This document shows, one piece after another, positions 1,928 to 47,044 of a DNA stretch of 47,127 nt (the first letter of the stretch is position 1; each line of letters opens with the position of its first letter). A program made the translations under genes and the position numbers. Origin of the DNA: Alkalicoccus chagannorensis DSM 18086. GTDB taxonomy: Bacteria; Bacillota; Bacilli; Bacillales; Salisediminibacteriaceae. The stretch spans positions 1 to 47,127 of the forward strand of contig NZ_AUCK01000031.1 in assembly GCF_000429725.1 (NCBI RefSeq). The letters are read 5' to 3'. The notes under the pieces are model-generated. The model saw only the letters and a program-made list of their open reading frames with translations. It did no database searches and was not told the DNA's origin.

Positions 1928-2070
1928 GAACAAAAGCGCAAAGCGCCTTTTGGTCGGAACGGCTTGTACTGCAGGTTCTTTGAGGGAAGCATGGGTTCTT
2001 CCTGCTTCCCGAGCAGCTGTCAGAGCCGCCGTCACCCTTAATGAAATCTTATATATTCTTATACTTAGCA
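1928..2070 (+). repeat. R1 interspersed repeat, copy 1
   Basis: Begins GAACAAAAGCGCAAAGCGCC and ends near ATATATTCTTATAC. It contains the internal hairpin GGGAAGCA/TGCTTCCC and the long-range pair ACGGC/GCCGT. It lies in the 523-bp gap between the divergent ygxA and ygzB genes. No gene is visible in the rest of that gap (1677-1927 and 2071-2172). Confidence 0.8.
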
Positions 2071-2582: not shown

Positions 2583-3020
2583 TTAATGCCTGCTTCTGCC
2601 GCTGCAGTCAGGGCATGTTCCATATACTTCCATTCGGTGCGTTCTTACTTTAAATCCTGCTACATGTTCTGCCAGCGTCTCGACTTCATCGAGACCCGGG
2701 TAATGAAAGTCTACAATTTTCCCACACCCATCGCAGATCACGTGATAATGATCCGATGTATTGCTGTCGAACCGGCTGGATGAATCTCCATACGTCAACT
2801 CACGTACAAGTCCGGCCTCTTTAAATACCCGGAGGTTGTTATACACAGTGGCAACACTCATGTTGGGAAAGCGGCTCTCCAGTGCTTTGTAGATATCATC
2901 GGCAGTAGGATGAATTTGAGCTTCAAATAAATATTCCAGAATAGCATGGCGCTGCGGCGTCATCCTCACCTTCGTACTCTTCAATGATTGAAGGGCTTCA
3001 CGGAGCTCTTGACTTTCCAT
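2583..3020 (-). CDS. perR: PerR peroxide-responsive repressor (Fur family)
   Basis: A 145-residue metal-dependent repressor of peroxide-defence genes, the same length as B. subtilis PerR. The N-terminal winged helix carries [12 protein letters not shown] and [14 protein letters not shown]. The ligands of the Fe/Mn sensing site are present: His in HPTADD, Asp in SSRFD, the two His of DHYH, and Asp in KIVDF. The structural zinc site has both Cys pairs (CDGC and CPDC). The ATG at 3020 follows AGAGG with an 8-base gap; the in-frame GTG at 3029 would overlap that site. Known PerR regulons often include perR and heme genes, and hemL lies about 2.8 kb away. No key residue is missing. Confidence 0.96.
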
Positions 3021-3091
3021 CACTCTCACCTCTCATTCGAACAGACAGATTTACGCATGTATCGTGTCCCTGTTGAGACAGTTCAACATAA

Positions 3092-16429: not shown

Positions 16430-16652
16430 CCAGCTTGTTGATTACGTAAAAAAAGAGGTAGATGTCTTCTTTCCTTTGTATTTTCTCCTTCGCTTACCGG
16501 CGGAAGCTTGCCTTCAGCTATTCCCCTGCCTTCCGAGCAGGAAAAAGGATCATCAGGCGGCGCGAACATCCCACTGGTATCCACGCCGGAAACGAATGAA
16601 AAAACGTCACAGAAAGGAACCTCTACCCCAGCATTCATTTTAGAGCCAAACA
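16430..16652 (+). repeat. R3 segment joined to an R2 3' end
   Basis: Bases 16430-16595 (CCAGCTTGTTGATTACG...CTTACCGGCGGAAGCTTGCC...) match, in reverse, the segment at 25905-26100 at roughly three quarters of positions by eye. The last 60 bases (ACGTCACAGAAAGGAACC...TTTTAGAGCC) match the right end of R2. It fills most of the 364-bp gap between the chromate genes and the gamma-glutamyltransferase. Confidence 0.75.
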
Positions 16653-22164: not shown

Positions 22165-22310
22165 GAACAAAAGCGCAAAGCGCCTTTTGGTCGGAACGGC
22201 GTGCGGAAGCGCTGCAAGCTTTTTGAGGGAAGAAAACGTTCTTTGTTTCTTCCCGAGCAGCGAATGGAGCCGCCGTCACACTGTATGAAAACTTACACAT
22301 TCCTATCATG
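22165..22310 (+). repeat. R1 interspersed repeat, copy 3 (best preserved)
   Basis: Starts GAACAAAAGCGCAAAGCGCC and ends ACTTACACATTCCTATCA. Arms: AAAAG-CGC/GCG-CTTTT hairpin, ACGGCG/CGCCGT outer pair, CGCTGC/GCAGCG, and GGGAAGAAA/TTTCTTCCC apical stem. It fills the 330-bp gap between recX and yfhH; no gene is seen there. Confidence 0.85.
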
Positions 22311-22386
22311 GAACAACAGACGCTGCTCGTCTTTGTTCCCACGTCTTCCAGTATACCGTTTCCCCCTGCTCTGGGAAAAGCAGAGT

Positions 22387-25671: not shown

Positions 25672-26098
25672 CCTTTCTGTTTATAAAGAAATTTTTCTGT
25701 GTAGGTATTCCTTTGACTGCTTCCACTTTCGAAGGAACGCTTTCTGGAGGGAGCTTTTGAGTCTCCAGGGGTCGCCCTTCTGCAGCTCCAGTATCGGTAT
25801 AAACGTGTCGGCTTTGATAGGAAAAAGAGAAGCACGGCAGCATGTTTCTTGACCAAAAGCGCGGAGCGCCTTTTGATCTGCTGTGACATCTTTCCCACAA
25901 GGAAAAAACGTTCCTTTTCTCCCCCGTGTCCGGCGGGGACCCCTGTGGGAGGTCCGCTCCGTCTGAAGATCCTTTCCCCTGCCTGGAAGGCAGGGAAAAT
26001 AGCTGAAGACAAGCCCACGGCAAGCTTCCGCCGGTAAGTGAAGGAGAAAAGACGAAGAGAAGAAGACATCTCCCTTATTTGTACGTAATCACCAAGCT
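25672..26098 (-). repeat. R3-containing segment between two identical hairpins
   Basis: Read on the minus strand it begins like the segment at 16430 (CCAGCTTGGTGATTACG), with shared CTTACCGGCGGAAGCTTGCC and CCCTGCCTTCC blocks, and continues for a further ~230 bp. A partial R1 copy lies inside on the plus strand (25851-25935, GACCAAAAGCGCGGAGCGCC). Open frames across it have no ribosome sites. No gene is visible in this 572-bp gap. Confidence 0.65.
25851..25935 (+). repeat. R1 interspersed repeat, copy 7 (partial)
   Basis: Starts GACCAAAAGCGCGGAGCGCC, and GGAAAAAACG/CGTTCC arms follow; the conserved outer arm and tail are missing. Nested in the R3-containing segment. Confidence 0.55.
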
Positions 26099-39133: not shown

Positions 39134-39210
39134 GGTACAGAAAAGACGCTACGGAAATGAACCTCTACCCCAACATTTATTTTAGAACCAAACTTACACA
39201 TTCTTACCAC
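39134..39210 (+). repeat. R2 3' end fused to R1 3' end
   Basis: ACGGAAATGAACC...CCCCAACATTTATTTTAGAACC is the right end of R2. It runs straight into AAACTTACACATTCTTACC, the right end of R1. The bodies of both repeats are missing. This lies in the 319-bp gap after the hypothetical membrane gene. Confidence 0.75.
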
Positions 39211-42643: not shown

Positions 42644-42913
42644 GGTCCTCATTGACATGTTAGGATGAATAGCTTCAAGCATGATCCGATATGTCTCCAA
42701 TGGCACGTGTGAATTTCTCTCAGCTGAATAAATACAAAAACGAAACCTTTGCAGGAATAAAGGCATCGACGCCAGAGAAATGAAGCGACATCCAAAAATC
42801 CTTCTACGCAAGGTGAAGAATAGTGGAGCACAAGCCCCTTGGCAAGCGTCCGCCGAAAACGAATGAAAAACGTCACAGCAATGAATCTTTTCACAAACAT
42901 TTGTTTTAGAACC
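42644..42913 (+). repeat. R2 miniature inverted-repeat element, copy 42 kb
   Basis: 270 bp. Left end GGTCCTCATTGACATGTTAGG; right end ACAAACATTTGTTTTAGAACC, whose reverse complement is GGTTCTAAAACAAATGTTTG. Internal blocks CGACGCCAGAG and CAAGCCCCTTGGCAAGCGTC are shared with the copy at 46767. No flanking duplication is seen, so it may be old. It fills most of the gap before the next gene. Confidence 0.8.
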
Positions 42914-43005
42914 TGTCAGGGTAGTTGCGCCCGTACCTCTCCTGCTATACGCTACAAGGAGAAACGTCATAGACACAGATAAAACAGGAAAGGCGGCATC
43001 CTCCT

Positions 43006-46758: not shown

Positions 46759-47044
46759 TTTTTTCTGGTTTTAGAATAAATGTTGGGGCAGCGGTTCATT
46801 TCCATGGCATCTTTTCTTCCGTTTCAGGCGGACGCTTGCCAAGGGGCTTGCCCTCCACTCTCCTCGCGTTGCGAGGAGGATGTTCGGACTGCGCTTGATC
46901 CCTCTGGCGTCGCCGACCTTCACTCCTGAAAAGGGTTCGTTTTTGTTTTTTCTTTTCAAAGAGAATCATAGGTCCGCCATTTGGAAAGCGTTTGAGCATT
47001 CCTAAGCCTAATCAGCCCAACATGTGAATGAGAACCTTTTTTCT
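46759..47044 (-). mobile_element. R2 miniature inverted-repeat element with 8-bp duplication
   Basis: The 270-bp element (46767-47036) reads on the minus strand from GGTTCTCATTCACATGTTGGG to CCCCAACATTTATTCTAAAACC; the two ends are inverted repeats over about 21 bp. It is flanked by perfect direct repeats AGAAAAAA (47037-47044 and 46759-46766). It carries no transposase. A 62-codon frame runs through it. Known ISL3-family elements have GG-starting inverted ends and 8-bp target duplications, so it could be moved by such a transposase; this is inference. Bases 47045-47127 show no gene. Confidence 0.75.

Follow-up and report, generated by a model that had tools for sequence, protein, structure and literature searches.

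A short intergenic repeat of Alkalicoccus chagannorensis placed behind terminator hairpins and oriented with replication

Introduction

Many bacterial genomes are rich in short interspersed repeats whose movement is mostly unexplained. Here we analyze R1, a short intergenic element repeated in a 47,127-nucleotide stretch of Alkalicoccus chagannorensis DSM 18086 (contig NZ_AUCK01000031.1, the whole of which is referred to as the window). The window makes up contig C26 in a draft genome of 3.52 Mb (38 contigs, 52% GC). The copies obey one rule when they are read as the reverse complement of R1 (denoted as S). The minus strand, on which S lies in the window, is the informative strand, and the original prediction, made from the window alone, missed it along with the placement of the element behind terminators.

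The stem-loop targets of group IIC introns are often terminators. Miniature elements derived from IS200/IS605 have hairpin ends, no target duplication and a bias toward the lagging-strand template, and IS200/IS605 elements target a short fixed sequence, which stands at the left junction. For REP, BIME and REPIN sequences with RAYT, mobility as single-stranded DNA is the favoured idea. According to PMC10190682, group IIC introns, which lack an endonuclease, recognize a stem-loop in the DNA, insert a few bases past this structure and use lagging strands. REPs are summarized in PMC3733652 as palindromes of 20–40 bp, many with a GTAG or CGTC tag. The repeats bcr1–bcr18 of the Bacillus cereus group span 100–400 bp, with up to 130 integral copies of bcr1 and a T-rich motif; in the summaries of PMC6542083 and PMC3446304 their mobility is not settled, and the first of them is said to occur only in the B. 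cereus group.

In its behaviour, S comes closest to the group IIC introns, which, in the outline given by PMC10190682, likewise insert behind a stem-loop with T-rich bases and use lagging strands; S itself lies downstream of a terminator-type stem-loop. Unlike these introns, S is approximately 146 nt long, holds no reverse transcriptase within its 127–148 bp, and lacks a ribozyme, an open reading frame (ORF), visible intron termini and an Rfam match. One group IIC intron is present in the genome, separate from S, and no group II (domain V) match was found at the R1 copies in the window, nor in loci L001, L036 and L004, at E ≤ 1. The closest described repeats are bcr1–bcr18, compared with R1 by description and not by sequence; unlike S, they are given no terminator or replication-strand rule in the portions of PMC6542083 and PMC3446304 that describe them. 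S resembles REP, BIME and REPIN sequences as a high-copy intergenic hairpin repeat, and differs from the REP/RAYT system in its larger size, its terminator-like hairpin end and its lack of a GTAG or CGTC tag. With the IS200/IS605-derived elements it shares hairpin ends, a bias toward the lagging-strand template and the absence of target duplication, without their fixed junction target. It is short, non-autonomous and high-copy like the miniature inverted-repeat transposable elements (MITEs), and relatives of its core in genomes G015, G020 and G021 have inverted ends; unlike MITEs, R1 has neither inverted ends nor target duplication. In searches of open-licence papers, no title or abstract was found to describe such a terminator-targeted repeat family, which is no proof that none exists.

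S begins directly behind intrinsic terminators

A T-run (at least 5 T in 8 positions, within 16 nt) lies just upstream of S in 90.8% of the 5′ flanks of 174 copies whose 5′ end is intact, compared with 13.3% at the S 3′ flanks and 19.3% at random intergenic sites, and A-runs occupy the same 5′ position in 1.7%. A stable hairpin together with the T-run was detected at 107 of the 174 flanks, versus 215 of 4000 random sites. The flanking hairpins vary between copies and, by eye, resemble the terminators of the preceding genes; in 154 of 171 cases, the closest predicted gene upstream shares the strand of S. The register is fixed, with the T-run at approximately −12 to −6 relative to ATAGG and a T at −7 in 96% of 105 copies, while the four bases preceding ATAGG are variable even in young copies. 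The distance between the hairpin and S is constant, with S starting immediately after the T-tract (about 8 nt).

The 3′ end of S, composed of a hairpin and TTTTGTTC, stands in the same register when the next copy follows, as it does for 30 of the 105 copies, and all adjacent pairs (30/30) are on the same strand. Every insertion recreates the target at its own end, and head-to-tail arrays therefore arise.

The orientation of S follows the replication strand

The original prediction raised the possibility that R1 is oriented with respect to replication, and the genome supports it. In segments of at least 12 kb, S is on the G-rich strand in 174 of 186 copies; among genes the corresponding count is 702 of 924, and among unit-final genes 314 of 458. 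Among the predicted intergenic terminators, S is carried by 67 of 296 on the leading (G-rich) strand and by 4 of 236 on the lagging strand (Fisher p = 2e-14), a bias beyond what terminators alone would produce. Since occupancy differs between the terminators of the two strands, the replication strand matters beyond the transcription strand. The occupied terminators are nearly all on the leading strand, and so the hairpin lies on the lagging-strand template. Neither random orientation nor an absence of structure beyond chance, two of the outcomes that the prediction had set against itself, was found.

The majority strand of the respective contig is kept by 141 of 150 R1 copies, a count in which single-copy contigs agree trivially. 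On contig C1 the copies switch from mostly minus to plus at approximately 170–270 kb, where the sign of the GC skew also changes; the coincidence suggests an origin or terminus of replication in this region.

Insertion joins are precise and leave no target duplication

The paralogous site CTTTTTTTA/TCGAGAAATC is empty near C1:210 and C19:112 and filled at C1:170664 and C21:25729, and the copy at C7:97209 has three empty paralogues. In the clean empty/filled cases, the joins are exact to 0–1 nt without target duplication. The site at C22:5325 has diverged empty paralogues with offsets of 0 and −3. This evidence rests on the named sites, drawn from at least 86 candidates of which many are non-independent neighbours within S arrays. 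Among 246 hits assessed for truncation, 137 retain both ends, 25 have the S 3′ end without the 5′ end, and 32 show the reverse.

The sequence TTGGTCGTTCTAACGTAACCTGAAGGTATTC, a second repeated intergenic sequence, occurs as an empty or filled target of S at C1:174, C1:170628, C7:9529, C19:76 and C21:25692.

The family is abundant in its own genome, with few matches in congeners

With the copy at 22165 as query, blast returned at least 58 matches in the genome (40 of 264 candidates scored), about 45 of them at 88–99% identity, and an older R1 copy returned at least 50. A covariance model built from 40 R1 copies (A2), applied to the best 150 of 2337 first-look candidates, matched all 150 scored places with E below 1e-15, and the genome accordingly holds at least 150 copies. 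In 1.285 Mb of merged stretches, mostly chosen around known copies, nhmmer gave 246 R1 hits, including 219 of at least 25 bits, of which 146 are full-length. Young copies are near-identical; old ones are decayed, and decayed copies are many.

In the seven other genomes of the genus, blast with R1 gave no match, and the covariance model gave one clear match (E 2.8e-7) and another at E 0.05. A pattern search with R1 against the named genomes returned no match, in a collection that may not include the window's own record, and plasmid searches with R1 and one relative returned none.

S is a structured element that decays after insertion

S is about 127–148 bp long without a consistent reading frame. 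The copy at 22165, which belongs to the young subfamily and is up to 99% identical to other copies in the genome, is organized as follows.

22165..22310, minus strand: focus R1 copy of 146 bp (151.7 bits), with the S 5′ end at 22310 and the 3′ end at 22165
22165..22192, minus strand: S 3′ end, its own terminator-like hairpin and T-tract (GACCAAAAGGCGC TTT GCGCTTTTGTTC), from the sequence and paired in folds
22193..22276, minus strand: conserved core of stems A, B and C with an asymmetric A-rich bulge, from covariation and the hit of model R3 described below (55 bits, E 1.7e-10)
22277..22310, minus strand: S 5′ tail CATGATAGGAATGTGTAAGTTTTCATACAGTGTG, kept across young copies, with the 4 nt before ATAGG variable
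22311..22350, minus strand: preceding sequence, a small hairpin AGACG..CGTCT followed by GTTGTTC in the terminator T-tract register, a weak terminator

Across the copies of the genome, 90.4% of the structure pairs are formed, and a two-sided change occurs in 1 of 30 pairs; breaks are mostly one-sided. With the lack of codon periodicity, these one-sided breaks make the copies look like descendants of one structured master that decay after insertion. Selection for RNA structure in each individual copy was rejected, as the pairs break one-sidedly. A coding origin was likewise rejected: a peptide-like frame exists, yet entropy along the tail follows no codon period, and the length of many indels is not divisible by three. 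For three R1 peptides, Pfam gave only KRAB (E 0.0078, below the cut-off) and WDR55 (E 0.34), both from one peptide. Wobble counts on R1 (71 A–C cells versus 24 G–T cells) favour S as the functional strand, a test not used as proof because over half of the A–C cells, 39 of 71, come from stem B. In the sources scanned, no Rfam 15 family reached its gathering threshold at the element, and matches below threshold lie on or beside copies in L036, L169 and L273.

A short S subfamily without the inner hairpin is represented at C2:63724, C6:42447, C15:19095 and C8:55701, the first three of which share the 3′ extension AGAGAAAAAGCATTGCAGC. In the young copy at C14:90052 (in L120), the inner hairpin runs on into the reverse complement of its own arm, the pattern that hairpin-templated snap-back replication would leave.

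Copies of R1 in the window

Seven copies had been claimed, all on the plus strand as R1. The covariance model returned exactly seven matches in the window (E ≤ 0.01), all seven on that strand, although several of these copies went into building the model. Five, including the copy at 22165, are near full-length (109.7–159.7 bits) and two are remnants. The others, given on the minus strand as S, are:

1928..2066, minus: R1 copy of the older subfamily, 159.7 bits
8265..8355, minus: R1 remnant, 29.6 bits
12625..12769, minus: R1 copy of the older subfamily, 109.7 bits
13017..13145, minus: R1 copy with the S 3′ end eroded, 115.5 bits
25851..25921, minus: R1 remnant, chiefly the terminator hairpin, 33.4 bits
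32697..32834, minus: R1 copy of the older subfamily, 120.7 bits

Of the shared start and tail proposed for these copies, the start holds: GAACAAAAGCGC is exact in three, one mismatch off in three and two off in one, and with up to 2 mismatches it occurs at 16 sites in the window, 14 on the plus strand (shuffles: mean 5.6, maximum 11). The quoted tail ACTTACACATTCTTATCA, with up to 3 mismatches, was found only in the 22165 copy (1 mismatch) and at a non-R1 site at 39192; the consensus tail from 40 copies is ACTTATACATTCTTATACTT. The copies had also been placed always between genes, which is mainly so, with 5 of 174 in the sampled genome overlapping a predicted gene by more than 30 nt. The rRNA gene does point the other way, the start of a 16S rRNA lying at 1–133 on the minus strand.

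The core hairpin is conserved across genera

Twelve cores from six genomes were aligned (A4), N-padded and registered by hand on the stems, because MAFFT alone misregistered them; the alignment consequently leans toward the structure. In A4, 96.1% of the paired cells are formed against 71.5% in shuffles, covariation is 0.803 against 0.279, and two-sided changes affect 13 of 19 pairs, a level reached by 35 of 500 shuffles; in the number of pair types, A4 does not surpass the shuffles. Model R2, built from A4, has matches with E ≤ 1e-3 in 9 of the 35 genomes of the family (G000, 119; G008, 28; G010, 22; G014, 92; G015, 95; G017, 85; G020, 57; G021, 68; G027, 71) and none of the other 26, with 131 candidates scored in each. 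In a class-level scan, R2 matched 1 of 299 genomes, the own one, a weak negative with 15 candidates scored per genome. The cores from other genera (63 matches, 56 distinct, 43 loci), in an alignment fitted to the model, pair in 98.2% of cells and show two-sided changes in 15 of 19 pairs, a level reached by none of 500 shuffles.

A further model, R3, draws on 27 relatives, all of them from G008, G010, G014, G015, G017, G020 and G021; its members were picked and aligned with R2, and only their sequence content is independent. With R3, the core of the 22165 copy was recovered on the minus strand (E 1.7e-10), and the four remaining near-full-length copies of the window gave E values from 1e-6 to 0.0074. 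Among 40 of the 70 Salipaludibacillus neizhouensis loci described below, it gave two strong hits, the rest being weak (E 0.0047 or worse), and its link to that species' own family is therefore weak.

Relatives differ in their ends and strand distribution

Among the 35 genomes of the family (the own one included), the R1 model has matches in seven, with 15 in S. neizhouensis (G027). A pattern derived from the S. neizhouensis repeat occurs in 70 stretches of the named collection, all from this species, and blast gave at least 52 matches (40 of 337 candidates scored). This family has the same layout, with a tail GATAAGAATGTATAAG, a long stem and a terminator-like hairpin, and a T-run precedes 51 of the 70 copies when the S start is assumed 20 nt before the stem. 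On the 3.63-Mb contig, 9 of 11 copies are minus below 1.6 Mb and 13 of 13 plus above 2.2 Mb, so one strand switch fits 22 of the 24 main matches counted, 9 smaller adjoining pieces being left out. On the 1.33-Mb contig, 3 of 4 are plus below 0.7 Mb, and all nine main matches above 0.79 Mb are minus. The strand rule is shown for these two genomes only, A. chagannorensis and S. neizhouensis.

In G015, G020 and G021, many core hairpins occur in units with inverted ends, e.g., GAGGCCACTGAAAAAG..CTTTTTCAGTGGCCTC. Five GAGGCCACTGAAAAAG-type units are flanked by exact 9-bp duplications (L275, L295, L296, L298 and L301, near 3001–3088). Scored over 38 relatives with up to 1 mismatch, duplications were found in 7, against 21 of 190 in a control in which only part of the flank was shuffled. 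G015 also has a terminator-ended tandem relative, with five head-to-tail copies at a spacing of 145–152 nt (L185:2437–3109).

A model of terminator-directed insertion and its alternatives

The original prediction considered an RNA, a processing signal or a miniature transposon. Near-identical young copies, empty sites and the patchy distribution support a mobile element; a classical inverted-repeat MITE is not what was found. We regard S as probably a non-autonomous mobile element which, like group IIC introns, inserts behind hairpins of the lagging-strand template, here those of terminators. Direction of the insertion by terminators and replication forks is the firmest part of this proposal and very likely holds. 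An RNA or reverse-transcriptase step in the movement is advanced tentatively, with the balance slightly against it, and a bacterial counterpart of a short interspersed nuclear element (SINE), in which a structured RNA with its own terminator is copied into DNA at forks from terminator to terminator, is a more doubtful extension. In the preferred reading, insertion would use the terminator hairpin while it is exposed as single-stranded DNA at the replication fork, and each insertion would leave a new terminator target at the S 3′ end. Machinery of the group IIC intron or reverse-transcriptase kind may copy an S RNA, primed by the nascent lagging strand; both the 3′ end of S and the site of insertion lie at the expected ends of terminated transcripts. 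The genome encodes one RVT_1 protein beside a group II intron RNA, with intron fragments elsewhere, and one TnpA (Y1_Tnp) with an adjoining ORF read as TnpB-like.

Several points weigh against this proposal. No mobilising gene is linked to the element, and the RVT_1 protein and TnpA are only candidates for moving it; the missing intron ends and Rfam match count in the same direction. The 246 hits show no excess of 5′ truncation, which reverse transcription often leaves. The hairpin-plus-T-run test was missed by 67 of 174 flanks, gene and terminator calls came from simple in-house scripts, the leading strand was inferred from GC skew and not from a mapped origin, and a candidate empty site at C11:82439 (offset −12) has diverged too far for a reading. 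A strict strand rule is absent among the 23 copies listed for G015, where 8 of 9 are plus in the first chromosome half and 7 of 14 in the second, and the core also occurs there in the inverted-end units, some with 9-bp duplications.

The alternative that survives best, though we consider it unlikely, is movement of S as single-stranded DNA by a Y1/HUH transposase of the IS200/IS605 or RAYT-like kind that recognizes hairpins, as for REP. It would account for duplication-free insertion, the hairpins, the lagging-strand-template orientation and the lack of an excess of 5′ truncation, and the Y1_Tnp protein and TnpB-like ORF offer a candidate. A terminator with a T-run stands just upstream of the only Y1_Tnp gene found (L061:1350–1480), and the IS-like element with this gene may likewise start behind a terminator. 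The junctions speak otherwise: over 105 copies they show only the T-tract and variable nucleotides, without a fixed sequence, and neither a GTAG nor a CGTC tag stood out. By eye, the surroundings of the IS, whose ends are placed approximately, are unlike S, and IS605 sequences were rejected as a source of S on this lack of likeness.

It is quite improbable that R1 is instead a functional RNA or a 3′-end processing or termination signal, selected at gene ends and spread by recombination. The terminator-like end of S, the covariation of the core across genera and the same-strand gene upstream would suit such a role. Against it, pairs break without compensation in the genome, decayed copies are many, congeners gave no blast match and a single clear model match, and occupancy depends on the replication strand, which a termination role does not require. 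For the bcr repeats of the B. cereus group, site-specific recombination between T-rich motifs has been suggested, and S too is joined at T-tracts; as an account of S this reading is very improbable, in that the T-tract usually follows a hairpin on one replication strand, the junction profile has no fixed TTTAT, and no recombinase is linked, none having been searched for. The least probable is that a DDE transposase moves S as a MITE, the kind of element that its relatives in G015, G020 and G021 seem to represent: the shared core and the five exact 9-bp duplications favour it, but R1 has no terminal inverted repeats (its ends, GAACAAAAGCGC and, e.g., ATTCCTATCATG, are not complementary), the three filled copies with empty paralogues show no target duplication, and the duplication score over the 38 relatives is not clearly above the control.

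The sequence of S and its flanks discloses the target rule (a terminator hairpin), the strand rule (the lagging-strand template), the junctions and how the target copies itself, which makes the mechanism directly testable. A comparison of sister genomes with many copies and with none detected should expose the mobilising gene. If an RNA intermediate is real, S would be a bacterial analogue of eukaryotic SINEs, and terminators would be a landing site beyond group IIC introns.

Other repeats

At L306:4295–4537, four matches to Bacillaceae-1 RNA (RF01690) lie head to tail at a spacing of 58–63 nt, one of them above the gathering score. The window also contains a second interspersed repeat family, GAACCTCTACCCCAGCATTCATTTTAGAGCCAAAC-like and 70–87% alike, at 16598–16651, 39140–39193, 42864–42917 and, inverted, 46766–46817. 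Two more inverted repeat pairs, 84–85% complementary, are formed by 16451–16519 with 26012–26080 and by 42817–42869 with 46812–46864.
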